Origin: an uncultured Acholeplasmataceae bacterium
Lineage (GTDB): Bacteria; Bacillota_I; Bacilli_A; Acholeplasmatales; Acholeplasmataceae
Length of the DNA: 45,463 nt
Reading direction: 5' to 3'
Assembly (NCBI GenBank): GCA_927441705.1
Contig: CAKMKH010000005.1
Location: 1-45,463 of the forward strand
A program made the position numbers and the translations under genes. Shown in pieces: positions 2,339-20,065 of the stretch; the first letter of the stretch is position 1, and every line of letters begins with the position of its first letter. The notes beneath the pieces are model-generated. The model had not been told where the DNA came from and did not search any database. It saw only the letters and a program-made list of their open reading frames with translations.

Positions 2339-2372
2339 ACATAAATTTGGCTTACAGAAAAGAGATGATGAG

Positions 2373-3218: not shown

Positions 3219-3666
3219 AGGTAAAACGACTGAATTAAAACTGCTTTATCATAAAGATAAAAAAGGGGATGGATTTATATCTGTTAAAAAGATGGATGGA
3301 CAAAATGTCCATAGCTTTTTAGCAACTAAACTATCAACAAGAGAACAACAACTTTTGATGCTTCATAAAAACTATTATTCTGAAAGTTTTATTAGTGCAG
3401 GTAAAACAGGACCTTATTTAGTCAATCTATTTACATTAAGTTGGGTAGAAAAATCTATTGAAAAGATGATTAAAAAAAGAGTTGAACCTATTTATTTAGA
3501 TGAAATCGGGATGTTTGAATATGAAGGTTATGGATTTGATTCTATTTTTAGAAAAATGATTGAATCTAATCTAGATTTAATCATAACTGTTAGAAAAGAG
3601 TTTTTAGATATTATCATCAAGCATTATGATCTAAAGGATGTAAAGATTGTCGAAGTATCTAGATAG
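3187..3666 (+). CDS. THEP1-like small P-loop NTPase
   Basis: A 159-residue P-loop protein. The N-terminus has a Walker A motif TGKINEGKTT (residues 6-15), and a Walker B-like YLDEIGMFE lies near residue 103. The DEIG-x-x-E pattern is the signature of the THEP1/nucleoside-triphosphatase family. The start at 3187 lies inside the end of xdhC (32-base overlap) and has GGGAGG at 3175-3180 to support it. This family is not a usual named member of xdh clusters. YqeC, an NTP-binding accessory protein of selenium-dependent hydroxylases, occupies a comparable place in other genomes. A role in hydroxylase maturation or in nucleotide hydrolysis feeding the pathway are both possible; neither is shown. Confidence 0.75.
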   Translation: MITIVTGKINEGKTTELKLLYHKDKKGDGFISVKKMDGQNVHSFLATKLSTREQQLLMLHKNYYSESFISAGKTGPYLVNLFTLSWVEKSIEKMIKKRVEPIYLDEIGMFEYEGYGFDSIFRKMIESNLDLIITVRKEFLDIIIKHYDLKDVKIVEVSR

Positions 3667-3677
3667 GAGTGTTTCTT

Positions 3678-4985
3678 ATGTATGATAAAGCAATCATTAA
3701 TGGAAAAGTATATGTGAATCAAATTTGGGAAGAGACAAATGTATATATCAAGGGTGAAAAAATCGCTTTAATTAGCAATGATTTTTTGCCTGCATCTGAA
3801 ATCATAGACGCAAAAGGATTAGAAGTGCTTCCTGGGATGATTGATCCTCATGTTCATTTTGAATTAGATCTAGGATTTATTAAATCTGTAGATGATTTTT
3901 ATAGTGGCAGCGTTGCTGCACTATATGGTGGATATACAGCTTATGTTGATTTTTTAGAACCAACCGATTCAGTTGAAGCTTTGGAGAATTCTTATTATGA
4001 TCGATTAGCATTAGCTAAAAAAAGTGTCATTGATTATCATTTTCATGCATGCATCAAAAATCCTAAAGGTGATTTAGAAGCCTATGTGAAAAAGATGAAA
4101 TCATTAGGGATGAATACACTTAAATTATTTACAACCTATTCTGATTCTGATAGGAGAACCTATGATCAAGAGATTATAGAGCTTCTTAAGTTATCAAAAA
4201 AATATCATTTTTTGATTATGGCACATATAGAAAATGATGATTTAATTGATTTAAATCCTAATTTCACTTATAAAGATTTACCAATGAGTAGACCATCCAT
4301 AAGTGAATTAACAGAAGCACTTAAATTAGCCGAATATACAAGACAAACCAAAGGTTATATGTATATGGTTCATTTAACTAGTGGGAAAACATTAGAAGCA
4401 CTCATTCAAAATTATTCTGATATTTTGAATAAGCATTTCTTTGTTGAAAGCTGTCCTCAATATTTTACTTTCACTAATGAAAAACTAAATGAAGAAGAGG
4501 GCTATTTATATACTTTTGCACCACCACTAAGAAGTCATGAAGAAAAAGAGTTGTTATTTAAGTATCATGAATCTGTTTTTACAATTGGTACTGATCATTG
4601 TGCATTTATGAAAAAAGATAAAATTAAACCTAAATTAAGTCAGATACCTTTAGGCATTGGTGGCATTGAACATGCTTTAGGTATCATGAGACATCATTTA
4701 GGTGATCAAGTGATTGAGAAAATGACTTCAAGAGTCGCATTTACTCAAGGACTAAGTAATAAGGGTCAAATTAAAGAAGGATTTGATGCTGATATTACAC
4801 TCTTTAAGGCCGATGCAGGAATGAGAGTCAGTGGAAATCATGGAACTTGTGATTATTCAGTTTATGAAGATTTAGCTACTTCAGGTAAAGTCATTTCAAC
4901 TTTAGTAAGAGGTCAATTTGTTTTAAAAGATCAAATACTCATCAAACACGAAGGTAAGCTCATCAAAGGATGTGATTTTCTATGA
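3678..4985 (+). CDS. hydA: Dihydropyrimidinase/D-hydantoinase family amidohydrolase
   Basis: A cyclic-amide hydrolase of 435 residues. From the ATG at 3678 the binuclear metal ligands are visible: DPHVH (His58, His60), the carboxylated lysine in TLKLF (Lys149), MAHIEND (His183), VHLTSG (His232) and GTDH (Asp306). These match D-hydantoinases and dihydropyrimidinases, which open hydantoin or dihydropyrimidine rings. I prefer ATG 3678 over the upstream GTG at 3669 because AGGAG (3665-3669) is correctly spaced for it. In this operon type (hyuA of E. coli), the enzyme is thought to open a ring formed after purine hydroxylation and reduction. The last base of its stop codon region overlaps the ssnA start. 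Confidence 0.9.
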   Translation: MYDKAIINGKVYVNQIWEETNVYIKGEKIALISNDFLPASEIIDAKGLEVLPGMIDPHVHFELDLGFIKSVDDFYSGSVAALYGGYTAYVDFLEPTDSVEALENSYYDRLALAKKSVIDYHFHACIKNPKGDLEAYVKKMKSLGMNTLKLFTTYSDSDRRTYDQEIIELLKLSKKYHFLIMAHIENDDLIDLNPNFTYKDLPMSRPSISELTEALKLAEYTRQTKGYMYMVHLTSGKTLEALIQNYSDILNKHFFVESCPQYFTFTNEKLNEEEGYLYTFAPPLRSHEEKELLFKYHESVFTIGTDHCAFMKKDKIKPKLSQIPLGIGGIEHALGIMRHHLGDQVIEKMTSRVAFTQGLSNKGQIKEGFDADITLFKADAGMRVSGNHGTCDYSVYEDLATSGKVISTLVRGQFVLKDQILIKHEGKLIKGCDFL

Positions 4986-6289
4986 TAAAAGCAATCATAA
5001 ACACAAAGATTTATGATTTTAATACATATATAGAAGATGGATTTGTCATCTTTGATGAAAAAATCATTAATGTTGGATTGATGAAAGACTTCATCAATCA
5101 AGATTATGAAATCATTGATGGTAATGATCATTTAGTTATGCCTGGACTTATTACAGCGCATACGCATATCTATTCAACTTTTGCACGTGGCATGAGCGTA
5201 CCTTTTCATCCAAAAGACTTTCAAGATATACTTGATCAATTGTGGTGGAAATTAGATTCTCATATAGATAATGATATAACATATTATAGTGGTATCGTTA
5301 GCGCAGTCGATCATATGAAAAATGGAGTGACTACGATTATTGATCATCACGCAAGTGGCATTGATATTCTTGGATCTTTAGATGCTTTAAAAAAAGCAGT
5401 ATGTGAAGATGCACATTTAAGAGGTGTATTTGCTTTTGAGACTAGTGATCGTTTTTTGGTTGAAGAAGCAATTAAAGAAAATATTGATTTTGGGAAAGCA
5501 AATCATTCATCATTTACGAAAGGTTTATTTGGACTTCATGCTTCGATGAGTCTTTCAGAAGAGACATTAAAGAAGGTAAAAGAAGTGATTGGCGATATGC
5601 CTATTCATATTCATGTTGCAGAAAGTGTTCTTGATGAAAAAGATTGTAAATCAAAATATAGAGAAAGTATCCTCAAAAGATTAGAAAGACATGGTCTTTT
5701 AAATCCTAAGAGTATTATTGCACACGGCATTTATGTCGATGATGAAGAATTAGAGATTATTAAAAAACATGATTGTGTGATTGCAGTAAATTTTTCTTCT
5801 AATATGAATAACAGTGTAGGTGTTCCTCCACTTAAAAAGTTTAGAGACCATGGAATTCCCGTTATTATTGGTAATGATGGCATATCATCTGCCATTACTA
5901 CAGAATATTTAACTTTATATTATGCAACTCATTTATTAGATCAAACGCCTAATTTATTTGGATTAAATGAACTTAAAACAATGATTTCTGATACCTATGA
6001 TTATGTGAATCATCTTTTAGATATTAAATTAGGAAAAATAGAAAAAGGATATGAATCCGATTTATTGATGGTGCCTTATGTTGCACCTACACCAATATCT
6101 AAAGATAATGCTTTTGGACATTTATTTTTTGGATTATTTCATAGTTTTAAACCAAAGCATGTTTATGTAGCAGGTAGGCAAGTTGTAAAAAATTATGATG
6201 TAGATCTGAGTTTGAAAAAACAATACGAAGAAGCCACAAAGTATGCATCTATACTTTGGGAACGTATCAATGAAGAGGTGGAAAAATGA
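4982..6289 (+). CDS. ssnA: SsnA-type amidohydrolase
   Basis: A 435-residue metal-dependent amidohydrolase of the SsnA/chlorohydrolase group. The metal-binding pattern is complete: AHTH (His60, His62), GLHASMSLS (about 184-192), HIHVAE (His209, His211), AHGIY (His248) and GNDG (Asp299). Enzymes of this fold hydrolyse C-N bonds of heterocycles, often deaminating purine-like rings. ssnA is a constant partner of hyuA, ygeY, ygeW and xdhD in anaerobic urate/purine degradation clusters, where its exact reaction is not settled. The start overlaps the end of hydA (ATGA-type), and its own stop overlaps the start of the next gene, so all three are translationally coupled. Confidence 0.9.
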   Translation: MIKAIINTKIYDFNTYIEDGFVIFDEKIINVGLMKDFINQDYEIIDGNDHLVMPGLITAHTHIYSTFARGMSVPFHPKDFQDILDQLWWKLDSHIDNDITYYSGIVSAVDHMKNGVTTIIDHHASGIDILGSLDALKKAVCEDAHLRGVFAFETSDRFLVEEAIKENIDFGKANHSSFTKGLFGLHASMSLSEETLKKVKEVIGDMPIHIHVAESVLDEKDCKSKYRESILKRLERHGLLNPKSIIAHGIYVDDEELEIIKKHDCVIAVNFSSNMNNSVGVPPLKKFRDHGIPVIIGNDGISSAITTEYLTLYYATHLLDQTPNLFGLNELKTMISDTYDYVNHLLDIKLGKIEKGYESDLLMVPYVAPTPISKDNAFGHLFFGLFHSFKPKHVYVAGRQVVKNYDVDLSLKKQYEEATKYASILWERINEEVEK

Positions 6290-7362
6290 ACTTAAAAACA
6301 ACGTTTGATGGATTAGTTTTAGAAAATCCTTTGATGCCTGCATCAGGACCATTAGTTGGAGACACTGAAAAATTATTATTTATGCAAGATGCAGGATGTG
6401 GAGCTGTTGTAACAAAAACTATATCGACTAAACTTCCTCATATTCCAAAGCCATGCATTTATGGCGATAAGCAATATGTCATGAATAGTGAGCTTTGGAG
6501 TGAATACTCTAAAGAAAAATGGGTTGAAGAATTTCTTCCAAATTATGCACTTACAAAAGATAGACCTTTAATTATAAGTGTTGGTTATAGTAAAGAAGAT
6601 ATGGAAGTGTTAATTCCTTTATTGGATAAGTTTGCTGATGCATTTGAAGTTTCTACGCATTATGTAGGCACTGATCTTTCAGTTATAGCCGAAACTGTCA
6701 AAATGATTAGAAAGCATACTAAAAAACCTTTTTATATGAAGATTAGTCCACATATTCCTGATCCTGCTGCATTTGCAAAAGTGATTAAAGAAAATGGAGC
6801 AAATGGTATTGTTGCGATTAATTCTTTAGGGCCAACGATGAAAATTGATATTGAATCAAGATCAATTTTATATGGTAATGAACAAGGATTTGTTTGGACA
6901 AGTGGGCCAGTCATTAAAAATTTAGCTTTAGCTACAGTTTATTCAATTAAAAAAGCTGAACCGAGTTTAACAGTTATCGGTGTCGGTGGGATTTCATCTG
7001 CAGATGATGTCATTGAATTTTTACTTGCTGGTGCATCAGCTGTTCAAATGCTTTCTGCAGCTTTATTAAAAGGAAAACAACTTTATGCAAAGATTATTAA
7101 AGATTTGCCAAGTCGTTTACTTGCTTATGGGTTTAAAAGCATTGAAGAAGTTATAGAGACAACTTTAAAAAATAATGTTAAATATGAAGCAAGTGTACCT
7201 TCACTAATCGAAGAAGAGTGTATTAAATGTAATTTATGTGTTAATGTTTGTCCATATTTTGCAATTACTATGGAAGATAAAATAACAATTGATTCTAATA
7301 AGTGCTTTGAATGTGGATTATGTGTTGTTAAATGTCCAACACATGCACTTATTATGGAATAA
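6286..7362 (+). CDS. PreA/dihydroorotate dehydrogenase-like FMN protein with two 4Fe-4S clusters
   Basis: A 358-residue protein with a TIM-barrel of the dihydroorotate dehydrogenase/PreA type, followed by a ferredoxin tail. Visible barrel motifs are NPLMPASGP near residue 14, YMKISPH near 148 and the phosphate-binding GVGGISSADDVIEFLLAGA near 233-251. The tail has two classical 4Fe-4S motifs: cysteines 312, 315, 318, 322 and 340, 343, 346, 350. PreA reduces uracil or thymine using electrons from PreT. Here the strand that usually carries the catalytic loop Cys (N-S-C-P) reads EVSTHYVG, with no Cys, so a standard dihydropyrimidine dehydrogenase reaction is doubtful. It may do the job of YgfK, the large Fe-S oxidoreductase absent from this operon (inference). 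Confidence 0.85.
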   Translation: MNLKTTFDGLVLENPLMPASGPLVGDTEKLLFMQDAGCGAVVTKTISTKLPHIPKPCIYGDKQYVMNSELWSEYSKEKWVEEFLPNYALTKDRPLIISVGYSKEDMEVLIPLLDKFADAFEVSTHYVGTDLSVIAETVKMIRKHTKKPFYMKISPHIPDPAAFAKVIKENGANGIVAINSLGPTMKIDIESRSILYGNEQGFVWTSGPVIKNLALATVYSIKKAEPSLTVIGVGGISSADDVIEFLLAGASAVQMLSAALLKGKQLYAKIIKDLPSRLLAYGFKSIEEVIETTLKNNVKYEASVPSLIEEECIKCNLCVNVCPYFAITMEDKITIDSNKCFECGLCVVKCPTHALIME

Positions 7363-7374
7363 AGGAGGAAAGAG

Positions 7375-9468
7375 ATGAAAGATATCAGCAAATCTATTCA
7401 AAAAGAAGATCATGTTGATAAAGTTTCTGGCAAAGCAATATACGTCAGTGATATAAAAATGGATGGAATGTTGTTTGCTAAAACTGTGAGATCTATTCAT
7501 CCAAAAGCTGAAATAAAGAGTATTGAAATCCCTGATTTACCAAAGGATTATTTTGTTGTTGATGAAAAGGATATTCCTGGAAAAAATTATGTCAAAATGA
7601 TATTTGAAGATTGGCCAATATTTGCTAAAGATCAAGTTAATTATATTGGAGAACCCATCATGCTTGTGATTGGAAAAGACAAGCAAGTCATCAATCAAAT
7701 CATTGATGACATAAAAATTGAATATAAAATATTAGAGCCTATGTTTGATTATCAAAAAAGTGTCATTCATAAGGATTTTAAAAAAGGAAACATCGATCAA
7801 GCTTTTGCTAAGCCATATAAGATCTTGTCACATACATATGAAACAGGGTATCAAGAACAAGCATATATTGAACCACAAGGGTTTATTGCCTATCCAGAAA
7901 ATCATAACAAAATTACATTAATCGGATCAATTCAATGTCCATATTATGTCAAAAATGCTGTTGTTTCAGCACTTGATTGTAATGATGACCAAGTACGCGT
8001 GATACAACCTACAGTTGGTGGTGCATTTGGTGGGAAAGAAGAATTTCCATCAGTCATGGCATGTCAACTTGCAGTTGCAGTTAAAAAAATAGGGAAGCCT
8101 ATAAAAATGATTTATGAGCGTGAAGAAGATATGGCAGTAACTACTAAACGTCATCCTTCAAAAATTAAACTAACTGCAGCTATTGATGAAAACAATCATA
8201 TCAAAGGAATTAAAGCGCATGTATCTTTAGATAGTGGCGCTTATATAGGGTTAAGTGGTGTTGTTTTATATAGAGCAATGATTGCATCAACAGATGCTTA
8301 TACCATTGATCACTTGGATGTATCTGGTGATGTCTATGAAACTAATACTGTTCCAAATGGAGCTTTTAGGGGATTTGGTGCACCACAAATGATTTTTGCT
8401 TTTGAAATGTTTATGAATCACATCGCAAAAGAACTTAATATTGACGTCTTACCTTTTAGATTAAATCATTTAGCTAAGCAAAATGATTTAACCTCTACAA
8501 GTGGTATATTTAGAGATCCAATCATTATGAAAAAAATGATTGATAAAGCGATGAAAATATCTGATTACAAACGTAAATATAAGAATTATCAAGACCCATT
8601 ATCTTTTAAAGGTATTGGGATGAGTTGGTTTTTGCATGGATGTGGGTTTACGGGTAGTGGTGAGAGTACACATATTAACGCAAAAGTTAAGTTAAAAAAA
8701 GATAAGGATGATCAAGTCTATATTTTAGTAGCTGCAGTTGAAATGGGACAAGGTGCTAAAACAGCACTAAAAAAGATAGTTGTTCAAACACTAGATATTC
8801 CATCTAAAAAGGTGACTTTTAATAATCCAGATACTGATTTTGTTCCTGATTCAGGACCAACGGTAGCATCTAGAACGATTATGATCGTTGGTGGTCTGCT
8901 TGCTAGAGCAGCATTGAAACTTAAAGAGTCTTGGAAAGATCATGAAGAAATGGAAGTTGTACAAGCTTATGAACAACCCGAATATATTAAATGGGATGAA
9001 GATACGATGCAAGGTGATGCATATCCTGCATATTCTTGGGGAGTTAATATTGTTGAAGTTGAAGTATCACCAGTAACTTTTCAAATTAAACTTAAAGGTA
9101 TTTGGAGTGTCTATGATGTAGGTAGGGCAATTGATAAACGAATGGTTTTAGGTCAAGCTGATGGTGGTATTGCACAAGGTGTTTCTTATGGATATTTAGA
9201 AGTTATGAAACATGAACAAGGGCGTATTAGACAAAAAACAATGACAGACTATATCATTCCAACTTCAATGGATATGCCTAAAACTACAACTGTTATTATG
9301 GAAAATCCTTATATATTAGGGCCTTATGGAGCAAAAGGCGTTGGAGAATTGACTTTAGTTGGTGGAGCACCTGCTGTTGCTCTAGCAATTGAACAAGCGA
9401 TTAAAAAGAAAGTAAAGAAAATTCCAGCAACACCAGAATATTTGATGGAGTTGATTGATCATGAGTAA
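7375..9468 (+). CDS. xdhA: Xanthine dehydrogenase family, molybdopterin-binding catalytic subunit
   Basis: A complete 697-residue catalytic subunit. It contains an N-terminal KVSGKAIYVSDI segment, the VGGAFGGKE cofactor loop (about residue 215), GAFRGFGAPQ (about 322), AVEMGQGAKT (about 456) and GAKGVGELTLVGG, in which Glu at about residue 658 is the family's catalytic base. It hydroxylates a heterocycle at the Mo centre using water and passes electrons to the 2Fe-2S and FAD subunits encoded immediately downstream. The preceding AAAGGAGG is a strong ribosome binding site. The substrate cannot be read from sequence; hypoxanthine/xanthine or a related oxopurine is the natural guess from the neighbours. 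The order catalytic, Fe-S, FAD is complete. Confidence 0.92.
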   Translation: MKDISKSIQKEDHVDKVSGKAIYVSDIKMDGMLFAKTVRSIHPKAEIKSIEIPDLPKDYFVVDEKDIPGKNYVKMIFEDWPIFAKDQVNYIGEPIMLVIGKDKQVINQIIDDIKIEYKILEPMFDYQKSVIHKDFKKGNIDQAFAKPYKILSHTYETGYQEQAYIEPQGFIAYPENHNKITLIGSIQCPYYVKNAVVSALDCNDDQVRVIQPTVGGAFGGKEEFPSVMACQLAVAVKKIGKPIKMIYEREEDMAVTTKRHPSKIKLTAAIDENNHIKGIKAHVSLDSGAYIGLSGVVLYRAMIASTDAYTIDHLDVSGDVYETNTVPNGAFRGFGAPQMIFAFEMFMNHIAKELNIDVLPFRLNHLAKQNDLTSTSGIFRDPIIMKKMIDKAMKISDYKRKYKNYQDPLSFKGIGMSWFLHGCGFTGSGESTHINAKVKLKKDKDDQVYILVAAVEMGQGAKTALKKIVVQTLDIPSKKVTFNNPDTDFVPDSGPTVASRTIMIVGGLLARAALKLKESWKDHEEMEVVQAYEQPEYIKWDEDTMQGDAYPAYSWGVNIVEVEVSPVTFQIKLKGIWSVYDVGRAIDKRMVLGQADGGIAQGVSYGYLEVMKHEQGRIRQKTMTDYIIPTSMDMPKTTTVIMENPYILGPYGAKGVGELTLVGGAPAVALAIEQAIKKKVKKIPATPEYLMELIDHE

Positions 9469-9934
9469 TATAAAATTTAAATTAAATCATAAGGATGTAG
9501 AACTAGATATAGATCCAAGTATGAGATTATTAGATGTTTTAAGAACTCATTTTGGTTTAACTGGTCCTAAAGAAGGTTGTGGAGAAGGAGAATGTGGTGC
9601 GTGTGCTGTTTTATTAGATGGGCACATCGTTCATAGTTGTTGTCTACCTTTAGCTAACGTTTCTAATAAAGAAATAGTGACTATAGAAGGTTTTGCGCAA
9701 ACGAAAAGATATCAAGTATTAGCTGATGCAATGCGTAAAGAAGGTGGGTCTCAGTGTGGTATATGTACTCCAGGGATGATGATTGCTGCTGAGAGTTTAT
9801 TAAATCAAAATCCAAAACCTACAGAAGAAGAAATTCGTATAGGTCTTACAGGAAATTTATGTCGTTGTACAGGATATAACATGATTATAAAAGCGATACA
9901 AAGCGCTTCTAAAAAAGGTGATGGCTTATGGTAA
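9461..9934 (+). CDS. xdhC2: Xanthine dehydrogenase family, 2Fe-2S subunit
   Basis: A 157-residue small subunit with both 2Fe-2S clusters. The plant ferredoxin-like site is CGEGECGACAV with a later Cys (cysteines 40, 45, 48 and 60). The helical-domain site is QCGICTPGM and GNLCRCTGYN (cysteines 99, 102, 134 and 136). It transfers electrons between the Mo centre and FAD. I chose the ATG at 9461 over an in-frame TTG at 9455; it overlaps the stop of the catalytic subunit gene (9466-9468) and sits about 10 bases after GGAG. The gene in turn overlaps the FAD subunit gene by 7 bases. The symbol is a label for the subunit only. Confidence 0.92.
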   Translation: MSNIKFKLNHKDVELDIDPSMRLLDVLRTHFGLTGPKEGCGEGECGACAVLLDGHIVHSCCLPLANVSNKEIVTIEGFAQTKRYQVLADAMRKEGGSQCGICTPGMMIAAESLLNQNPKPTEEEIRIGLTGNLCRCTGYNMIIKAIQSASKKGDGLW

Positions 9935-10767
9935 AACATATGATTCCTAAAAATTTAGAAGAAGCGATTCTATCTTTAAATCAAGATGATTACCAAGTGA
10001 TTGCTGGGGGCACTGATTTAATGATTCAAAAAAGAAATGATGCAGATCTAGCGCCACTATTTAAAACAAATATGATTTATGCATTTAATTTAGATGAATT
10101 AAAATACGTCATAAAAGAAAAAGATAGAATAAGAATTGGATCTATGACATCTTTAGAAACACTGCTGTATCATCCTGATGTGCCGCAATTACTAAAAGAT
10201 GTCATCATAGAAGTAGCTTCGCCAGGGATTAGAAATGTTGCTACACTTGCAGGTAATATAGCTAATGCATCACCTGCTGGTGATACATTAGTTGTGCTAT
10301 ATTTAATGGATGCTATGGTTGTTTTATCAAGTTTAGGTAAAGAAAGACATCTACCTATTGAAAAAGTCATTTTAGGGCCTAGAAAAACATCAATTAATAA
10401 AAATGAATTGATTACTGAAATTATTATACCTAATAACAATTTTACTAAAGCATCTTGGGTTAAAGTTGGAGGAAGAAGAGCTGATGCAATTTCTAAAGTC
10501 TCTTTTGTTGGAGCGATTACTATCGATCAAGATATGGTTGTTGATTTTAGAATAGCTTTAGGCGCTGTTTTTGCAACTGTTGTAAGAAACAAAGAGCTAG
10601 AAAATCTTTATAAAAATATAAGTGTTGAGATATTAAAAAATAATATCATTCATATTTTGAATCAGTATCAAGATTTAATTAAACCGATTGACGATCAAAG
10701 ATCTAATAAAACATATCGGAATCGAGTTGCACTTAATTTGATTGAAGATTTTATAAGAAAAATATAA
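9928..10767 (+). CDS. xdhB: Xanthine dehydrogenase family, FAD-binding subunit
   Basis: A 279-residue FAD subunit of the CO dehydrogenase/xanthine dehydrogenase flavoprotein family. The FAD-binding motif VIAGGTDLMIQKR lies near residues 24-36. The second conserved region GIRNVATLAGNIANASPAGDT (around residues 96-116, split here for length: GIRNVATLAGN then IANASPAGD) contacts the isoalloxazine. The C-terminal CO_deh_flav_C-like part follows from about residue 170. It accepts electrons from the 2Fe-2S subunit and passes them to NAD or another carrier. The start at 9928 lies inside the preceding gene; an alternative in-frame ATG is at 9940. Confidence 0.9.
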   Translation: MVKHMIPKNLEEAILSLNQDDYQVIAGGTDLMIQKRNDADLAPLFKTNMIYAFNLDELKYVIKEKDRIRIGSMTSLETLLYHPDVPQLLKDVIIEVASPGIRNVATLAGNIANASPAGDTLVVLYLMDAMVVLSSLGKERHLPIEKVILGPRKTSINKNELITEIIIPNNNFTKASWVKVGGRRADAISKVSFVGAITIDQDMVVDFRIALGAVFATVVRNKELENLYKNISVEILKNNIIHILNQYQDLIKPIDDQRSNKTYRNRVALNLIEDFIRKI

Positions 10768-10782
10768 GCTAGGTGGTGCTAT

Positions 10783-12507
10783 ATGGATTATCAAAAAATC
10801 ATGAAAATAGCAAGAGGAGAAATTAAAGCTGAACTTGTTTTGAAAAATGCAAACATTATAAATGTATATAGTGGTGACATAGAAACAGGTGATATTGCTA
10901 TTGAAAATGGAACAATCGTTGGGATTGGTTCTTATCATGGGAAAATAGAGCATGATATCAATCATAAATATGTTGCACCTGGTTTTATTGATGGACATGT
11001 ACATATTGAATCTTCAATGCTCACCCCTCCAGGATTTTCAAAGATTGTTGTCCCTAAAGGCACAACAACTGTTATTGCTGATCCACATGAAATCGCAAAT
11101 GTTTGTGGATCAAAAGGCATAGAGTTTATGCTTAGTAGTAGTGATAACATACCACTTAATGTTTATATGATGATACCATCTTGTGTGCCTGCAACAAAAG
11201 ATGAAAATAATGGATTAACTATTACTGTTAATGATATTCAATCATTTATGAATCATCCAAGAGTTATCGGCTTAGGTGAAGTGATGGACTATCCTTCTGT
11301 TATATATGGTGAGGAAGATATTCATAAAAAAATTGAATTAATGAAAGAAAGAAAAATTGATGGACACGCACCAGATATTATGGGTAACGATTTAAATGCT
11401 TATATTGCTGCTGGGGTACAAACAGATCATGAGTGTTCAATGGTTGAATCTATGATTGCTAGAATTAAAAGAGGTATGTATGTTCATTTAAGAGAAGGTT
11501 CACAAACAAGAAATACAAATGCACTTTTAAAAGGATTGAATAAAGATAATATCAATCGTGTGCTTTTTTGCACCGATGATAAACATCCGTTTGATATTAA
11601 AGAAGAAGGACATATAAACTTTAATGTCAATCTTGCGATAAAGTCAGGAATATCAGCAATAGATGCCATTAAAATGGCAACATTAAACGCTGCTAACTGT
11701 TATGGTTTGTCCCATTTAGGTGGTATTGCACCTAACAAACAAGCTGACTTAATCGTCTTTAGTGACTTAAGTCAGATCGAACCAGAAACAGTATACTATA
11801 AAGGAAATATTGTAGCAGAAAACGGTAAACCTTTGTTTGAAGCATCAGCAAATATACCTAAATCAGTTACGAATACGGTTCATTTAGAGGATGATTTATC
11901 TTTTGATTTATATTTAAATAGTCCAAAGGTTCGTGTCATCGGATTAATTCACAACAATATAACAACCCATGAATTGATTAGAGAAGTTAAGGTGGAAAAC
12001 AAAAAGTTTGTTTATGACAAAGATAAAGATATATTAAAACTTGCAGTTATTGAAAGACATCATCATACTAAAAATATAGGTATCGGTCTTGTCGAAGGCT
12101 TTGGTTTAAAAAATGGGGCATTAGCAATGACAATTGCTCATGATTCTCATAATTTAATTATTGTAGGTTCATCTGATTATGATATGAAAATAGCAGCTAA
12201 GAAGATTCAAGAGATTCAAGGAGGCATCGTTTTAGTTCAAAATGGTGTTGTAAGTGAATATTTGGAATTAGAAGTCGGTGGCATCATGACAACTCATTCT
12301 GAGCTTATTGTTGAAGAAACATTACTGAAAATGAAAACAAAAATTCAAAGGATGGGACTTAATCCTGATGTAGATGATCCTTTCATATCATTAGCATTTC
12401 TTGCTCTACCTGTTATTCCTAAATTAAAATTAACTGATAGAGGCTTATTTGATGTTGATTTATTTAAGATTGTTCCAATTGAAGTTAATAAGAAGGTGAA
12501 AAATTGA
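10783..12507 (+). CDS. ade: Adenine deaminase
   Basis: A 574-residue adenine deaminase of the bacterial AdeC/Ade amidohydrolase type, converting adenine to hypoxanthine plus ammonia. Characteristic motifs are PGFIDGHVHIESSMLTP (about residues 66-82), GLGEVMDYP, DGHAPDI, DHECSM and CTDDKHP, the last from the metal site. The C-terminal domain (after about residue 390) with GLVEGFGLKNGALAMTIAHD is typical of this family. The length matches the family. AGGTGG lies a few bases before the ATG. In this operon it feeds adenine-derived hypoxanthine to the hydroxylase genes just upstream. It ends on TGA, which overlaps the TTG start of the next gene; this also shows that TGA is a stop here. Confidence 0.94.
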   Translation: MDYQKIMKIARGEIKAELVLKNANIINVYSGDIETGDIAIENGTIVGIGSYHGKIEHDINHKYVAPGFIDGHVHIESSMLTPPGFSKIVVPKGTTTVIADPHEIANVCGSKGIEFMLSSSDNIPLNVYMMIPSCVPATKDENNGLTITVNDIQSFMNHPRVIGLGEVMDYPSVIYGEEDIHKKIELMKERKIDGHAPDIMGNDLNAYIAAGVQTDHECSMVESMIARIKRGMYVHLREGSQTRNTNALLKGLNKDNINRVLFCTDDKHPFDIKEEGHINFNVNLAIKSGISAIDAIKMATLNAANCYGLSHLGGIAPNKQADLIVFSDLSQIEPETVYYKGNIVAENGKPLFEASANIPKSVTNTVHLEDDLSFDLYLNSPKVRVIGLIHNNITTHELIREVKVENKKFVYDKDKDILKLAVIERHHHTKNIGIGLVEGFGLKNGALAMTIAHDSHNLIIVGSSDYDMKIAAKKIQEIQGGIVLVQNGVVSEYLELEVGGIMTTHSELIVEETLLKMKTKIQRMGLNPDVDDPFISLAFLALPVIPKLKLTDRGLFDVDLFKIVPIEVNKKVKN

Positions 12508-13757
12508 GTTTTATAAAACAGTATAGATGTACATTATGTGACCAAACATTTGCATATAATAAACATATAATGACATGCCCTTCTTGTTGTGAAAAAGGGA
12601 TTCTAGATATCGAATATGATTATGAGTCGATGCGAAAATTTGTTGATTTAAACTATTTTAAAAATCAAAAAGATTTCTCGATGTGGCGATATATTCATTT
12701 GATTCCAGTGGAAAATAAACATATTGATCAAATGCTTCATATAGGATGGACGCCTTTATATCGCGTGAATGCTTTGGAAAAACAATTAAAAGTAAAACAG
12801 CTATATATCAAAGATGAAGGGGTAAATCCAAGTGCTTCACTTAAAGACCGTGCAAGCGCAGTTGCAGTCTTAAAAGCAATTGAGTGTGGATATGATAGTG
12901 TTTCTTGTAGTTCAACAGGAAATGCAGCATCTAGCTTAGCATGTCATGCTTCTCGCATGGGATTAAAAAGTTTTATTTTTGTACCTAAAAGAGCACCTGT
13001 TGGTAAATTAAATCAACTTTTAATTTATGGCGCTAAAGTCTTTTATGTTGATGGTGATTATAAAGATGCGTTTAACTTATCAAAAGATGCTATTGATGCA
13101 TATGGATGGTATAACAGGAATGCAGCAATCAATCCGCATTTAGTTGAAGGAAAGAAAACAGTAGCATTAGAAATTGCTGAACAACTCAATTTCTCATTAA
13201 CAAATTGGGTTGCAGTTTCAGTGGGTGATGGATGTACGATTGCAGGTGTCTATAAAGGATTTTATGATTTATTTCAATTAGGTTTAATCAAAAAGATTCC
13301 TAAACTATTAGGTGTACAAAGCACAGGATGTTCACCTTTTGTTGATGCATATTTGAATGGAGAACCCATAAAAGAAGTAGAAGAAAATACAATCGCAGAT
13401 AGTATTTCAGTAGGCATTCCAAGAAATCCAGTTAAAGCAATAAACGCAGTTAAAAAAACATTAGGTGCTTGGATTGCAGTAACTGATGAACAAATATTAG
13501 AAAGTATGAAAATCTTAGGAAGTAGTGAAGGCATTTTTGGTGAACCAGCTGGAGTGGCAGCTCTAGCGGGAGTGAAAGAAGCAATTAAAAATAAAATTAT
13601 CAAAGAAAATGAAACAGTAACAATCATCATGACTGGTAATGGTCTAAAAGATCCTTTAAATGCACAAAAAGCAGTAAAGGCACCAGCCTTAGTTAAACCT
13701 AGACTAGAAGACTTAAAACAAATACTAGAAATAAAAGGAGAAAAAAGACATGCCTAA
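12504..13757 (+). CDS. Threonine synthase-like PLP enzyme with N-terminal zinc ribbon
   Basis: A 417-residue fold-type II PLP enzyme. The N-terminus has a zinc ribbon (cysteines 9, 12, 25 and 28), as in many threonine synthases. The PLP lysine is in SASLKDRAS (Lys114). CSSTGNAASSLACHASRMGL and the glycine-rich segment SVGDGCTIAG are also family features. The start is TTG (12504), with AGAAGGTG upstream, and overlaps the ade stop. No threonine or homoserine genes are nearby, so a biosynthetic role is unlikely. In E. coli the comparable place holds YgeX, 2,3-diaminopropionate ammonia-lyase, also fold-type II. A beta/gamma-elimination or replacement on an amino-acid-like purine breakdown product is a reasonable inference. 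Confidence 0.8.
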   Translation: MSFIKQYRCTLCDQTFAYNKHIMTCPSCCEKGILDIEYDYESMRKFVDLNYFKNQKDFSMWRYIHLIPVENKHIDQMLHIGWTPLYRVNALEKQLKVKQLYIKDEGVNPSASLKDRASAVAVLKAIECGYDSVSCSSTGNAASSLACHASRMGLKSFIFVPKRAPVGKLNQLLIYGAKVFYVDGDYKDAFNLSKDAIDAYGWYNRNAAINPHLVEGKKTVALEIAEQLNFSLTNWVAVSVGDGCTIAGVYKGFYDLFQLGLIKKIPKLLGVQSTGCSPFVDAYLNGEPIKEVEENTIADSISVGIPRNPVKAINAVKKTLGAWIAVTDEQILESMKILGSSEGIFGEPAGVAALAGVKEAIKNKIIKENETVTIIMTGNGLKDPLNAQKAVKAPALVKPRLEDLKQILEIKGEKRHA

Positions 13758-15114
13758 AGTACCATTTGGACCAACATATGATGAAATGCTTAATCCAAAT
13801 CATATAGATCCTGAAATTAGAAAAAAAGCATTACATTCAAAAGAGGATGAACTCAATCCTATTAATTTATTTAATATTACTTGGAAAAATGAAAACAATG
13901 AAGTAAATAAAATAGTACTCCCTAAAGCATTAACAGGTATAGATGCGAATATTGTTGTTTTACTAGGGACATATTTTCCTTCCGGATCCCACAAGGTGGG
14001 ACCTGCATATTCAACACTTATTGAAGGTTGTGTAGATAAAGAAATTATTCCAGAAAAACATACTATACTTGGACCATCAACAGGTAACTTTGGGATTGGT
14101 GTAGCTTATATCTGTAATTTAATGAAATATGATTCTATCGTAATTATGCCAGATAATATGAGTAAAGAAAGATATGATAGAATTAAAAGATATGGGGCAA
14201 AACTAGATTTAACACCAGGTACTGAATCTGATGTAATCTTAACCTTACAGCGCACTTATGAATTAAAGAAGAATCCTGAATATAGATCTCTAGCTCAATT
14301 TGAATTACTACCTAATTATCGCTTTCATAGACATGTTACTGGTAACAGCGCGATTGAGGCTGTAAAGGGGATTGGTAATGGAAGAATTGCATGTTTTGCA
14401 TCTGCTCCAGGTAGTGCAGGCACACTTGCTGCAGGTGATCAGATTAAAACTGCATTTCCAGAAGCAAGAGTCGTTGCTTTAGAACCTTATGAATGTTCAA
14501 CACTGATGAATGGTGGTGTTGGTCAACATCGTATTGAAGGTATCGGAGATAAGATGTGTACGCTCATTCATAATGTTTTAACAACAGATTTTGTAGCTTT
14601 AATTAGTGATGAAGATTCTGTTAGAGGATTAAAAATCATCCATGATGCACCTCATATTTTAGTTGAACATGGTGTAGATCCAAAAGTTGCGAAACATCTT
14701 ACTGATTTATTTGGAGTATCTACAATATGTAATATCTTGGGTGCTATTAAGATGGCTAAGTATTTAAAGTTAGGTGTTAATGATAATATCGTTACGGTTG
14801 CAACCGATGGTTACGATCGTTATGAAAGTGTAATTGATAATTTAAATCACCGCGTTTTAGAAACTGAAGACTTTGTATTAAGAAGATGGTTTAAAGATAT
14901 CTTCTTAAATGTAAATACTGATCATGTAGATGATTTAAGATCGATGGAGAAAAAAGAAAGATTGTTTAAACAAAAAGAACACGATTGGTTAAGATTTGAT
15001 TATTCTATTGAATATTTAAATCAAATGAGAGATATGAAGTTTTGGAATGACGAATACGAATTGATTAAAACATTTGATCAAAAGATTTTGGAAAAAAGAG
15101 GGAAAGAATTATGA
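13750..15114 (+). CDS. Fold-type II PLP-dependent enzyme (cysteine synthase/ammonia-lyase like)
   Basis: A 454-residue PLP enzyme of the tryptophan synthase beta-like superfamily. The probable PLP lysine is Lys82 in [10 protein letters not shown]. The phosphate/cofactor-binding [13 protein letters not shown] (about residues 109-121) and [16 protein letters not shown] (about 215-230) motifs support the fold. The C-terminal 80 residues are a charged helical extension ([17 protein letters not shown]) not seen in plain cysteine synthases. It overlaps the end of the preceding PLP gene by 8 bases, so two fold-type II enzymes are made together. Proteins of this type sit next to ygeY and ygeW in purine clusters. 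An ammonia-lyase role comparable to YgeX is plausible; the exact substrate is unknown. Confidence 0.8.
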
Positions 15115-16331
15115 TAAAAATCCCATTTGAAGATATATTAAAAAAAGCACATGCTTATGAAAAGGATATGACCAAGTTCTTAAGAGATATGGTTAGGATT
15201 CCTAGTGAATCATCTGATGAAAAAAAGGTGATCAAGCGCATTGAAGAAGAAATGATTAAAGTTGGATTTGACTCTGTAACTATTGATCTAATGGGCAATC
15301 TTATTGGACAAATCGGACATGGTAAACATATCATTGCTATGGATGGTCATGTGGATACCGTTGGTATTGGTGAAATTAAAAACTGGACATTTGATCCTTA
15401 TGAAGGATATGAAGATGAAGAAACGATTGGTGGCAGAGGAACTTCTGATCAAGAAGGTGGTATGGCATCAATGGTTTATGCAGGTAAAATCATTAAAGAT
15501 TTAAAACTTGAAGATGACTATACACTTTTAATTACCGCTTCTGTTCAAGAAGAAGATTGCGATGGATTATGTTGGCAATATATCATCGAAGAAGATAAAG
15601 TGATTCCTGAATTTGTTGTGATTACTGAACCAACATCGTGCAGGATATATCGTGGTCATCGTGGACGTATGGAAATAAAGGTAAGCACCCATGGGGTGAG
15701 TTGCCATGGCAGTGCCCCTGAAAGAGGAGATAATGCAATTTTTAAGATGGCACCAATTTTATTAGAAATCAAAGAGTTAAACAATAGATTAAAAGATGAT
15801 CCTTTCTTAGGTAAGGGAACGATGACAGTTAGTCAGATATATTTTAGTTCACCTTCGAGATGTGCGGTTGCTGATGGATGTTCTATTTCAATTGATAGAA
15901 GATTAACGCATGGCGAAACCTATTTATCTGCATTAGAAGAAATTAGAGCATTGCCTTCTGTAAAGAATAGTAAAGCTGTTGTAGAAATGTATACCTATGA
16001 AAGACCTGCTTATACTGGTTTGGTTTATCCAACGCAATCATATTTTCCTACTTGGGTCTTAGAAGAAGATCACGTTGTCTGTGAATCAACAGTAGATGCT
16101 TATAAAAACATATTTAAAAAAGATCCAATTGTAGACAAATGGACTTTTTCAACTAATGGAGTTTCTATTATGGGAAGACATAATATCCCTTGTATTGGAT
16201 TTGGTCCAGGACATGAAGAAGAAGCTCATGCGCCAAATGAAAAGACTTGGAAAAAGGATTTAATTGAAGCTTGTGCAATGTATGCAGCGATTCCACTTAT
16301 GTATTTAAAGCATATCAAAAAGGAGAAATAA
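15111..16331 (+). CDS. ygeY: YgeY-type M20 family hydrolase
   Basis: A 406-residue M20/DapE-ArgE-like metallohydrolase of the YgeY ('selenium metabolism hydrolase') group. Metal-site residues are visible: MDGHVD (His80, Asp82), [11 protein letters not shown] (Asp113), VQEEDCDG (Glu147/148), TEPTS (Glu173) and [13 protein letters not shown] near the C-terminus for the last His. The dimerisation domain lies around residues 185-295. Such enzymes hydrolyse amide or carbamoyl bonds of small amino-acid derivatives. In purine-degradation clusters, ygeY is always next to ygeW and a PLP lyase, consistent with deacylating or decarbamoylating a ureido acid before ammonia elimination (inference). It overlaps the preceding gene by 4 bases. 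Confidence 0.88.
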
Positions 16332-16333
16332 AA

Positions 16334-17317
16334 ATGATACCACTATTTAAAGGAAAACACTTTATTACTTTAGAAGAATGGAATAAAGAAGAGATTGATA
16401 AACTTCTTGAAGTATCAAAAGAACTTAAAAGAAAATTTTTAAATAATGAACCTACAGATTACTTAAAAAATAAGACAGCTTTTTTAATGTTTTTTGAAGC
16501 ATCGACTAGAACAAGAAATTCTATGGAAGCTGGCATTGCTCATCTTGGTGGGCATGGCACATTCTTAGATGTTTCTACCATGCAAATTTCGCATGGTGAA
16601 ACTGCAAAAGATACGGCAACTATTTTATCATCTTATGGCCATGGGATTGCGTGTAGATATTGTAATTGGGGTATAGGAAATAAATATTTAAGAGAGATGG
16701 CAACACATTCAACTGTACCGATTATGAATCTTCAATGTGATATTTATCATCCAATGCAGGGCCTAGCAGATTTAATGACGATTCAAGAAGTCACTCAAAC
16801 TACGAAAAATTTAAAGGTTTCCATTATTTGGGCTTATGCAAAAAGTCATAAAAAACCAATTAGTGTACCTTTAACACAAATCTTGTTGTTTCCTCGATAT
16901 GGTATGGATGTGACACTAGCTTATCCTAAGGGCTATGACCTACCAAAGTGGGCTATAGAAAAAGCAAGACAAAATGCGATAGAAAATGGTGGATCATTTA
17001 AAATTACACATGATATAAATGAAGCATTTACAAATGCTGATATAGTGATTCCTAAAAACTGGGGAAGCTGGGTTAATAATCAATCAACAGAAGTCATTGA
17101 TGATCTTTTAGAATCTTATAAGGGTTGGAAATGTACAGAAGATATGATTGCTTTAGCTAGTCCAAATGTCTATTATATGCATGCTCTACCTGCTGATAGA
17201 GGTAATGAAGTAGAAGATTCAGTCATTGATGGTAAGCATTCAATTGTCTATCAAGAAGCTGAAAATCGTTTGCATACTGCTAAAGCAGTGATGGCAATGA
17301 CAATGGGAGACAAATAA
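16334..17317 (+). CDS. ygeW: YgeW-type carbamoyltransferase
   Basis: A 327-residue member of the aspartate/ornithine carbamoyltransferase family. The carbamoyl-phosphate site FEASTRTRNSME (about residues 54-65) and HPMQGLAD (139-146) are clear. The C-terminal MHALPADRGNEVEDSV block corresponds to the amino-acid-side loop of OTCases. The ATG at 16334 is chosen over an upstream in-frame ATG at 16271 because AAAGGAG directly precedes it and the family N-terminus fits. YgeW of E. coli is longer (near 396 residues), so this is a compact form. In the purine operon it probably runs in the phosphorolytic direction, moving a carbamoyl group from a ureido acid to phosphate. A carbamate kinase to make ATP is not in the window. 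Confidence 0.85.
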   Translation: MIPLFKGKHFITLEEWNKEEIDKLLEVSKELKRKFLNNEPTDYLKNKTAFLMFFEASTRTRNSMEAGIAHLGGHGTFLDVSTMQISHGETAKDTATILSSYGHGIACRYCNWGIGNKYLREMATHSTVPIMNLQCDIYHPMQGLADLMTIQEVTQTTKNLKVSIIWAYAKSHKKPISVPLTQILLFPRYGMDVTLAYPKGYDLPKWAIEKARQNAIENGGSFKITHDINEAFTNADIVIPKNWGSWVNNQSTEVIDDLLESYKGWKCTEDMIALASPNVYYMHALPADRGNEVEDSVIDGKHSIVYQEAENRLHTAKAVMAMTMGDK

Positions 17318-17355: not shown

Positions 17356-17841
17356 TTAATATATTTCTTTTTCTTTTTCGTTGTATTCTTTAAACAGGAG
17401 TAAACATTCATCACGGTATTTCTCATCTAAGATTAAAAGTTTTTTATCCGGATGTTCATCTCTCATGAAACGATAAATAAATGCATCTCTAAAGCCAATA
17501 CTATCTGCATCATTTGGACGACAGCCGTAAATGACATGTTTGATATTAGCCCAGATGATTGCTGATAAACACATCGGGCAAGGATAGGCTGTAGTAATTA
17601 AGGTGCATCCAGTAAGATCGTGTGTACCTAATAATTCTCCTGCCTGTCTGATAGCATTCATTTCTGCATGAGCTGTTGGATCGTGATCTTTTAAAACAGA
17701 GTTGGAAGAAACTGAAATGATTTTTCCATTTTGATCGATGATTGCTGCACCAAAGGGTCCACCAATATCATCATTCATCGTTGTCTTTGCTTTTGCGATT
17801 GCTTTATCCATAACATCCTTGATACTTGTGTCTTTGTCCAT
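17356..17841 (-). CDS. guaD: Guanine deaminase (CDA superfamily)
   Basis: A 161-residue zinc deaminase of the cytidine/deoxycytidylate deaminase fold, close in length to Bacillus GuaD (156). Zinc ligands and the catalytic Glu are in HAEMNAIRQA, and the other two ligands are in PCPMC. The GCRPNDADSIGFRD segment resembles GuaD more than TadA or cytosine deaminases. It would convert guanine to xanthine plus ammonia, complementing adenine deaminase in the facing operon. It is transcribed alone from a good promoter at 17890-17918 and converges on ygeW with a shared terminator. Related deaminases of other specificity cannot be fully excluded. Confidence 0.85.
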   Translation of the reverse strand: MDKDTSIKDVMDKAIAKAKTTMNDDIGGPFGAAIIDQNGKIISVSSNSVLKDHDPTAHAEMNAIRQAGELLGTHDLTGCTLITTAYPCPMCLSAIIWANIKHVIYGCRPNDADSIGFRDAFIYRFMRDEHPDKKLLILDEKYRDECLLLFKEYNEKEKEIY

Positions 17842-17990: not shown

Positions 17991-17999
17991 TGATATAAT
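17991..17999 (+). promoter_or_regulatory. Heliorhodopsin promoter (extended -10)
   Basis: TGATATAAT is an extended -10 element located 25 bases before the start codon. The -35 region (around 17971-17976) is poor. AGGAGG at 18014-18019 is a strong ribosome binding site. The heliorhodopsin gene thus has its own transcription start, divergent from guaD. Confidence 0.65.
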
Positions 18000-18024
18000 A
18001 TGCGTATAAATAAAGGAGGACTTT

Positions 18025-18789
18025 ATGAAAAATAGTTTAATTACATTTAATAAAAAAATGGGAATAATGCATCTCATTCAAGGATCGATAATTCTGATAC
18101 TTGCATTAACTGTTGATGTCTTTAAAGACTTTAAACCGACCATATATGCAAGATTTTTTGAAGTTGATGGAGCTGGTGGCTATGGTCCAGTAACACAAGA
18201 AGTGTTTAACTTACCATTTGGAATCATGGTTGCTCTATTCCTCTTATTAAGTGCGATATTTCACTTTTTAATTTCAGGTCCTTTTAAGACTCAATATCTT
18301 GCATCTATTGATAAAGGAATCAACTCATTACGTTGGTATGAATATGCCTTGTCATCATCTATTATGATTGTTTTACTTGCATCTATGTTTGGATTATTGA
18401 CATTAGAAGCGATTTTGTTAATTTTTGTGATTAATGCACTTATGAATTTGTTTGGTTTATTAATGGAAAAAATGAATCTAATTGATCGAACACATACAGA
18501 TTGGACAGCACATTGGTTTGGTTGGATTGCTGGAGTAACTCCATGGGTCCTGATTGTGATCTATATGTTAAACAATGGTGATTTATCACAACTCCCTTGG
18601 TTTGTAATACCTGGGCTTATATTTTACTTTTTAATATTTAATCTATTTGCATTAAACCAATACTTACAATATAAAAAAGTTGGATTATGGAAAGACTACA
18701 TATATGGTGAACGCATGTATGTTTGGCTGAGTTTATTTGGAAAATCTATTCTAGCGTGGTTTATTTTCTTAGGTATATTACTTACATAA
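18025..18789 (+). CDS. Heliorhodopsin
   Basis: A 254-residue seven-helix retinal protein of the heliorhodopsin family. The diagnostic helix 3 motif RWYEYALSSS gives Glu106 as the Schiff-base counterion, and helix 7 has SLFGKSILAW with Lys240 as the retinal lysine. These positions match Glu107 and Lys241 of the reference heliorhodopsin 48C12. Other family features are MHLIQG in helix 1 (His16), IFHF (His80), INALMNLFG in helix 4 and GERMYVWLSL before the retinal lysine. Heliorhodopsins have an inverted topology (N-terminus in the cytoplasm) and a slow photocycle; ion transport is generally not seen and the physiological role is open. The gene is alone between a promoter and a strong terminator, and no retinal biosynthesis gene is in the window, so retinal may be scavenged. 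Confidence 0.95.
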   Translation: MKNSLITFNKKMGIMHLIQGSIILILALTVDVFKDFKPTIYARFFEVDGAGGYGPVTQEVFNLPFGIMVALFLLLSAIFHFLISGPFKTQYLASIDKGINSLRWYEYALSSSIMIVLLASMFGLLTLEAILLIFVINALMNLFGLLMEKMNLIDRTHTDWTAHWFGWIAGVTPWVLIVIYMLNNGDLSQLPWFVIPGLIFYFLIFNLFALNQYLQYKKVGLWKDYIYGERMYVWLSLFGKSILAWFIFLGILLT

Positions 18790-18846
18790 TTAATTTATAA
18801 ATAGTTAAATGATTGAATCTAGCCATTTAGATGGAAAATTTCTTTT

Positions 18847-18887
18847 AAAAAGGTGCACTCGAGTTGAACATTCGAGTGCACCTTTTT
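18847..18887. terminator. Strong bidirectional terminator after heliorhodopsin
   Basis: A 16-bp stem including A/T tails: AAAAAGGTGCACTCGA pairs with TCGAGTGCACCTTTTT around a 9-base loop. It serves heliorhodopsin on the plus strand and the DUF2892 gene on the minus strand. A similar hairpin ends the window at 45393-45428. Confidence 0.92.
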
Positions 18888-18908
18888 ATATAGGGATAGA
18901 TTTAAGAA

Positions 18909-19109
18909 TTATTCCTTAGACTCAATATTTACTTTACAAGTATTAATCCCAATTAATTTGTATAGTCCACATCTGCCTAGTGCAGCTGTTACAATACTAA
19001 TTGCTGCAGGTATCAACATCCACCAAGTCCATACAAAAGCTAATACAATGAAAATAACTCCTAAAGCATAACGAACATATTGATCAGTTTTTCCAACATT
19101 TTTTTTCAT
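18909..19109 (-). CDS. DUF2892 small membrane protein
   Basis: A 66-residue protein matching the DUF2892 (YgaP C-terminal-like) family. It has a short basic N-terminus MKKNVGKTDQYVRYALGV, then two membrane helices (about residues 14-31 and 33-46), and GRCGLYKLIGINTCK at the C-terminus, with two cysteines that are conserved in this family. The function is unknown; some relatives are fused to rhodanese domains. It is monocistronic, convergent with heliorhodopsin and shares its terminator. GGAAG precedes the start on the minus strand. Confidence 0.88.
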   Translation of the reverse strand: MKKNVGKTDQYVRYALGVIFIVLAFVWTWWMLIPAAISIVTAALGRCGLYKLIGINTCKVNIESKE

Positions 19110-19321: not shown

Positions 19322-20065
19322 ATGCATATTCTTATAACAGGTGGGACAAGAGGCATAGGTCTAGGCATCGTCACTGAATTACTAAAAAAAGGACATCAGG
19401 TAACTTATACTGGAACAAGCGAAAAAAGCATTCAAGAAAATATAGGGAAACTTCAAGGTGATTATCATCCGGTTATTTGTGATGTAAGAAGCATGGATGA
19501 TCTCTTAAAAGCAAAAGATGAAGCTCATAAAGCATTTGGTCTTATTGACATATGGATTAATAATGCTGGTGTTGGACAAGAACAAAAGACAATCGATCAA
19601 TTATCGGATACTGAAATCCAAAAAGTGATTGATATCAATATATTAGGGACGATGATTGGGACAAAGATTGCACTAGAACAATTTAAAAAACAAGGCTATG
19701 GATATGTCTATAATTTTGAAGGATTAGGCTCTAACAATATGAAAATTCCTAAAACAATTGTTTATGGAACTACCAAAAGAGCCATTACTTACTTTTCTAA
19801 AGCAGCTAATAAAGAACTTACTAATTATCCTAATATTTTTGTTGGGACTATTCAACCTGGTATGGTATACACGGACCTACTGTTATCAAACATGAGTGAA
19901 GATGGGATGAAAATAGCGCGCATATTAGGAGAAGATGTTGAACATGTTGCGCCTTTTATTGTAAAGAAAGTCTTAAAGAAGAAACAAAGTATCAAATATC
20001 TAACATTTACCAAAGTATTGTTTAAGTTTCTTTTTAGTCCATTTAAAAAACACAAAGAGATTTAA
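19322..20065 (+). CDS. Short-chain dehydrogenase/reductase (SDR)
   Basis: A 247-residue classical SDR oxidoreductase. The N-terminal cofactor motif TGGTRGIGLG (about residues 6-15) and INNAGVG (about 78-84) are standard. The catalytic Tyr-x-x-x-Lys is VYGTTKRA (about 148-155). The usual upstream catalytic Ser falls in FEGLGSNNM. The C-terminal 30 residues are rich in Lys and Phe and may touch the membrane. An AGAGGTGAT ribosome binding site lies just before the ATG. The substrate is unknown, and nothing in the neighbours hints at one. It appears to be transcribed alone. Confidence 0.85.
   Translation: MHILITGGTRGIGLGIVTELLKKGHQVTYTGTSEKSIQENIGKLQGDYHPVICDVRSMDDLLKAKDEAHKAFGLIDIWINNAGVGQEQKTIDQLSDTEIQKVIDINILGTMIGTKIALEQFKKQGYGYVYNFEGLGSNNMKIPKTIVYGTTKRAITYFSKAANKELTNYPNIFVGTIQPGMVYTDLLLSNMSEDGMKIARILGEDVEHVAPFIVKKVLKKKQSIKYLTFTKVLFKFLFSPFKKHKEI

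Follow-up and report, generated by a model that had tools for sequence, protein, structure and literature searches.

A second, divergent heliorhodopsin in an uncultured Acholeplasmataceae bacterium

Introduction

The described heliorhodopsins with which the gene reported here can most closely be compared are 48C12 (structures 6su3, 6uh3 and 9ljj), TaHeR from the Thermoplasmatales (6is6 and 7u55) and TfHeR from Trichococcus flocculiformis. The last of these binds a class II CPD photolyase and in doing so raises its repair activity about threefold (PMC9769723). The host of TaHeR has been reported to lack retinal synthesis, and uptake of external retinal through a fenestration has been proposed (PMC9385722); heliorhodopsins have also been reported in strictly anaerobic Firmicutes (PMC8612252). 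Ten groups of neighbouring genes have been published for the family, one of which is the short-chain dehydrogenases/reductases (SDRs), and tocopherol-cyclase-like genes are not among the ten (PMC11109279).

The colour of heliorhodopsins is naturally tuned at two positions that have been defined by mutagenesis, one near the β-ionone ring of retinal and the other directly before the retinal lysine (PMC7807009). At the first of these, the substitution M205Q in the Thermococcus protein shifted absorption by +9 nm and Q224M in the Ornithinimicrobium protein by −5 nm; at the second, exchange of Ala for Ser gave a blue shift and exchange for Thr a red shift. Proteins of the Gln/Ala type absorb at 550–556 nm and those of the Met type at 530–539 nm, with the Halolactibacillus protein at 545 nm (PMC7807009). 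The H. alkaliphilus homologue in the present set (L121) is of the Met type.

Identity and fold of the window protein

The window, meaning the whole stretch of 45,463 nucleotides that was analysed, corresponds to contig 5 of an assembly of 1.76 Mb that is 97% complete. The heliorhodopsin gene that it contains is listed in Table 1 together with its transcription signals, functional residues and neighbours. The window protein matches the Pfam family Heliorhodopsin (PF18761) with 273.7 bits (cut-off 26.7) and the NCBIfam equivalog NF038020 'heliorhodopsin HeR' with 265.8 bits (cut-off 100), and a search of the PDB matched solved heliorhodopsins at E about 1e-50; the identity given in the initial annotation is thus no product of chance. 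An AF2 model built from a 30-sequence alignment (mean pLDDT 90.3) has seven helices and a two-stranded extracellular loop 1 (strands 39–47 and 53–62). A long two-stranded extracellular loop is typical of heliorhodopsins. When the model was compared using Foldseek, TaHeR was matched with a TM of 0.89–0.90 (36–37% identity) and 48C12 with a TM of 0.85–0.87 (41–43% identity in structural alignment), and other rhodopsins were far behind at 9–16% identity, the best type 1 match having an E of 3e-3. A type 1 microbial rhodopsin (pump, channel or sensory) was rejected because both sequence and fold are nearer to the heliorhodopsins. Lysine and arginine residues number 11 on the predicted cytoplasmic segments and 3 outside, which fits a cytoplasmic N-terminus, and the taxonomy of the Acholeplasmataceae points to a monoderm host, as is expected for heliorhodopsins. 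Judged by its sequence and its predicted fold, the window gene is a genuine, full-length heliorhodopsin.

Table 1. Coordinates of the heliorhodopsin gene, its signals, key residues and neighbours in the window
Feature	Position	Strand	Basis
Nucleoside/nucleobase-type deaminase, divergent neighbour	17356..17841	-	Profile match; not a recurrent partner
Extended -10 promoter element TGATATAAT	17991..17999	+	Sequence
Ribosome binding site AAAGGAGG	18012..18019	+	Sequence
Heliorhodopsin gene of clade B	18025..18789	+	254 aa; Pfam, NCBIfam, PDB and Foldseek matches
His16 (His23 of 48C12)	18070..18072	+	Codon check; invariant in 123/123 aligned sequences
His80 (His80 of 48C12)	18262..18264	+	Codon check and alignment
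Glu106, Schiff-base counterion (Glu107 of 48C12)	18340..18342	+	Codon check and alignment
Gln212 (Gln213 of 48C12), colour site near β-ionone ring	18658..18660	+	Alignment; site role PMC7807009
Ser236, SxxxK motif	18730..18732	+	Codon check
Gly239 (Ala240 of 48C12), colour site next to retinal Lys	18739..18741	+	Alignment; site role PMC7807009
Lys240, retinal Schiff-base lysine of SxxxK motif (Lys241 of 48C12)	18742..18744	+	Codon check and alignment
Hairpin terminator between convergent genes	18846..18888	.	-28.1 kcal/mol, runs into T's
YgaP-like transmembrane protein, 66 aa (PF11127), convergent neighbour only	18909..19109	-	Profile match
Short-chain dehydrogenase/reductase past terminator, neighbour only	19322..20065	+	Profile match

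Retinal-site and colour-tuning residues

Residue equivalences were established by pairwise alignment of the window protein to 48C12 (6su3/9ljj). Every residue that had been named in the initial annotation was found by codon check at the position given for it, and the alignment upheld the pairing of its two histidines, glutamate and lysine with those of 48C12. The stretch Arg103-Trp104-Tyr105-Glu106 was likewise confirmed by codons. The protein therefore carries the features that mark members of the family, namely a Glu counterion in helix 3, two conserved His residues and an SxxxK motif with its Lys in helix 7. Indeed Lys240, Glu106 and the other retinal-site residues are invariant across the aligned heliorhodopsins, and all 20 members of the group to which the window protein belongs, here termed clade B, retain the key residues.

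The Lys, Glu, His and Ser residues of the retinal site are held in common with 48C12, as is Gln213, whereas the residue before the retinal Lys is Ala in 48C12 and Gly in the window protein; TaHeR differs at both colour sites, with Met at the Gln213 position and Ala before the Lys. At position 212, 20/20 clade B sequences have Gln and 103/103 others Met; at position 239, the counts are 20/20 for Gly in clade B and 101/103 for Ala in the others. Measured against the red-shifted group of heliorhodopsins (absorption maximum above 550 nm; PMC7807009), the window protein has the Gln but carries Gly239 in place of the Ala, and hence only a predicted shift is claimed here and not membership of the measured group. 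The window copy is predicted to absorb roughly 5–10 nm redder than the other, canonical heliorhodopsin of its genome, at roughly 545–560 nm as against 535–548 nm. A peak at 540–560 nm had been anticipated from the outset, which was reasonable, and the pocket residues predict the upper part of that range. Gly239 could nevertheless cancel the effect of Gln212, since Ser and Thr at this site act in opposite directions and no value for Gly was found in PMC7807009. The predicted shifts are small and may be without biological use.

The canonical copy and clade B

The window gene had been taken to be the heliorhodopsin of its genome, and it proved to be a second copy. The canonical copy lies on another contig (G000:C98:6394-7155), scores higher against the family (321.8 bits) and is 48% identical to the window protein. 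It belongs to the same family and has all functional residues, but where the window copy has Gln and Gly at the colour sites it carries Met and Ala. The two also differ in their surroundings: the canonical copy shares an operon with a tocopherol-cyclase-like gene (PF14249, 76 bits), which follows after 49 bp, and is divergent from a class II-like photolyase gene 170 bp away, for which the best model by far is class II phr2 (451 bits, short of the cut-off of 550), whereas the window copy stands alone. The canonical copy thus resembles TfHeR in being linked to a class II-type photolyase; unlike TfHeR, the window copy has no adjoining photolyase.

In a quick tree of 111 heliorhodopsins the window protein grouped with 17 others (18 rows, support 99). 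In a careful tree of 38 rows, 11 of 11 clade B rows fell on one branch (support 100/99), with 48C12 and TaHeR, both of them long branches, lying outside. The placement in a heliorhodopsin tree that had been proposed as a check on the window protein is therefore to be found within the family, in clade B. Members of the clade share 59–83% identity with the window protein; their sources are Acholeplasmataceae, Izimaplasma, further Mollicutes and Bacillota bins that have not been placed, and the clade alignment contains 22 fixed or nearly fixed positions that are specific to them. A clade B copy and a canonical heliorhodopsin were found together in 17 of 18 distinct genomes, with G089 alone showing one copy; most of these genomes are draft metagenome bins, and in single cases the co-residence could reflect binning. 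The 18 are the window's own genome, G029, G034, G038, G044 and G082, and 13 that were reached via clade B loci (12 of the 13 with a canonical copy), G100 being the same as G082. Each of the other four species of the genus has a single heliorhodopsin, which in no case belongs to clade B. The window gene is thus the second and more divergent of the two heliorhodopsins of its genome, and lies in a separate clade.

Further heliorhodopsin arrangements were observed in the genomes compared. Broken remnants with in-frame stops or frameshifts are found at G003:C8:90316-90517, G006:C36:9729-10227 and G042:C14:6947-7709, which indicates that some species have lost the gene. A third, long-branched group occurs in the small-genome genus g14 (L039, L040 and L041, in G085, G081 and G083), and in G083 and G085 it is accompanied by another heliorhodopsin. 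On G096:C2, two non-clade-B heliorhodopsins are 3 kb apart (L166:3220-4038 and 7026-7853), and a clade B copy lies about 34 kb from this pair, making three heliorhodopsins in one genome.

Transcription and gene neighbourhood

Of the promoter attributed to the window gene, an extended −10 element is present, and TTAATGATATAAT recurs 5′ of the relatives L036 and L067, the rest of whose upstream DNA differs; a consensus scan found no −35 of consensus quality before the window gene. The terminator was confirmed as a strong candidate hairpin, flanked by A and T runs and so probably bidirectional, which the consensus terminator scan missed, probably owing to its loop-length limit. With an extended −10 element and a hairpin terminator of its own, the gene is very probably transcribed singly, as a monocistronic unit.

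The genes that flank the heliorhodopsin in the window were not found again next to its clade B relatives. The earlier view that the gene has no obvious partner consequently stands for the window locus, but not for the genome's heliorhodopsins as a whole, given the genes linked to the canonical copy. The downstream SDR gene was rejected as a partner, as the terminator and about 530 bp lie between and it is absent beside clade B relatives. A purine-degradation operon occupies positions 303-17317 (+) of the window and encodes xanthine-dehydrogenase-like, SsnA-like, hydantoinase-like, adenine deaminase and YgeY proteins, of which YgeY and adenine deaminase pass curated cut-offs, most other assignments falling below theirs. 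In the sister species G022 the operon proteins are 80–95% identical and the divergent deaminase 83%, and no heliorhodopsin is found beside them. Both the deaminase and the operon were for this reason rejected as partners; the operon is a coincidental neighbour, and the purine-degrading context, to which the initial annotation drew attention, is uninformative as to function.

Gene contexts vary between clade B lineages. A DJ-1/PfpI gene lies 27–36 bp 3′ of the clade B heliorhodopsin in three genomes (L034, L035 and L036), followed in L035 and L036 by DUF1475-like and DUF3159 genes. The same pair is also present near non-clade-B heliorhodopsins of Syntrophomonadaceae (L107 and L110) and of two other Bacillota bins (L112 and L131). 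Three bins have another arrangement in common.

The tocopherol-cyclase-like gene, by contrast with the neighbours of the window copy, is a recurrent companion of canonical heliorhodopsins. Among 88 family genomes, 30 hold both genes, 5 heliorhodopsin alone and 3 the cyclase-like gene alone (Fisher 2e-8, calculated without the reduced-genome genus g11 and with phylogeny ignored). The two are adjacent in 24 of the 30 genomes holding both, usually 37–71 bp apart and with the heliorhodopsin first, the order being reversed in G005. The pair is located at L032:5382-7191 (G000:C98) in the window's own genome, where the cyclase-like gene occupies L032:5382-6335, and at about 23 further family loci, it recurs in two genomes beyond the family search (L150 and L151), and the link persists where phytoene synthase is absent. 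A literature search did not find heliorhodopsin together with tocopherol, and the pair is apparently unreported before. The family profile of the cyclase-like protein found no convincing relative in the PDB, and a single-sequence AF2 model of L117 (pLDDT 36) was discarded. At nine loci (L013, L015, L018, L029, L030, L031, L038, L044 and L049) a phytoene-desaturase-like gene was observed divergently upstream of or near the canonical heliorhodopsin, and several of these genomes have phytoene synthase nearby as well.

Retinal supply

Statements at the level of the genome rest on family searches. Phytoene synthase was found in none of five species of the genus (one a single-contig genome), with seven control genomes positive, and an RPE65-type oxygenase in none of 24 genomes, with two controls positive. 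The search for carotenoid cleavage (blh/brp) genes that had been recommended gave no Blh/BCD match above cut-off in the window's genome, in any of the 88 family genomes or in 24 further ones; no positive control was matched here, and this absence is accordingly weaker than the others. In G030, a weak match to BCD/Blh (21.8 bits) was dismissed as chance, being below cut-off, containing two stops and overlapping other reading frames. The observation that no retinal synthesis genes lie nearby is therefore true and, as far as tested, holds genome-wide. As no genes for carotenoid or retinal synthesis could be recognised in the genome, retinal is probably scavenged, that is, made by other organisms and taken up by the window protein. 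The question of where retinal comes from is a real one, but it is not particular to this bacterium, having precedents in TaHeR and in the anaerobic Firmicutes (PMC9385722; PMC8612252).

Function of the window copy

On balance, the evidence favours a functional, singly transcribed heliorhodopsin that would give a cell already possessing a canonical copy a second receptor for light. Retinal from other organisms would be loaded into the window protein, light would set off a slow photocycle such as that of other heliorhodopsins, and the ensuing conformational change may be relayed by the cytoplasmic face, which is positively charged, to a protein, either soluble or in the membrane, whose gene lies elsewhere. 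The two copies would cover colours shifted from one another or act on different partners. By analogy, the canonical copy most likely serves the photolyase and photoprotection, and for the window copy the best guess at a target is defence against light and redox stress; its partner and its signalling we infer from described systems. The stand-alone light sensor with a partner elsewhere that was envisaged in the initial annotation agrees with this as regards monocistronic transcription, an intact Lys and Glu and the want of a conserved local partner, but the sister copy had been missed.

The two copies might simply be redundant, and in its fullest form this reading would make the window copy a spare, either redundant or acquired recently, that gene flow among sediment bacteria maintains and that has no separate role. 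Such a gene would be expected to come and go, as this one does: none of the four other species of the genus has it, and it is missing at the equivalent site in G022; the lack of conserved neighbours and the smallness of the predicted spectral shift (PMC7807009) point the same way. A spare copy nonetheless appears unlikely, as clade B is coherent in the careful tree, two of its fixed or nearly fixed positions are at known colour sites and no member has lost a key residue, and as the remnants in G003, G006 and G042 suggest that unused copies decay, which the window copy has not. It is decidedly improbable that the two copies act jointly, as a heterodimer or a single receptor complex, rather than as separate sensors. 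Solved heliorhodopsins are dimers formed via helices 4 and 5 and the extracellular loops (PMC6951262), a clade B gene is almost always accompanied by a canonical copy, and the clade-specific residues R43, Y53, E128, P152, R155 and W167 (clade consensus) map to extracellular loop 1 and helices 4 and 5 or to their vicinity; the genes are, however, unlinked, on different contigs and in separate transcription units, and G089 shows a clade B gene with no second copy. Were the protein free of retinal in nature for want of supply, with a role independent of light, the absence of recognised retinal and carotenoid synthesis from genome and genus would be accounted for. The invariance of the retinal-site residues would then be unexpected, and the fenestration uptake proposed for TaHeR, whose host likewise lacks synthesis (PMC9385722), offers a route to retinal, which makes a retinal-free protein very improbable indeed.

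A second light receptor could also form part of a wider two-colour system in Acholeplasmataceae and related wall-less bacteria, although this is quite unlikely to be correct in full. A green canonical copy would be tied to the photolyase and the tocopherol-cyclase-like protein, and the clade B copy, shifted to the red, would have a target of its own, both using scavenged retinal that the cyclase-like protein, possibly a handler of retinoids or carotenoids, would help to bind or process.

As read from sequence, the kind of protein is a known one, and what appears new is clade B, the second copy and its predicted red shift. The tocopherol-cyclase-like gene beside the canonical copy provides a concrete new partner candidate. 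Retinal scavenging is directly testable in this genus, in which no sampled species was found to have phytoene synthase or Blh and all have heliorhodopsin. A lineage with two copies whose residues at both colour sites are fixed and different constitutes a natural paired experiment on what heliorhodopsins sense.
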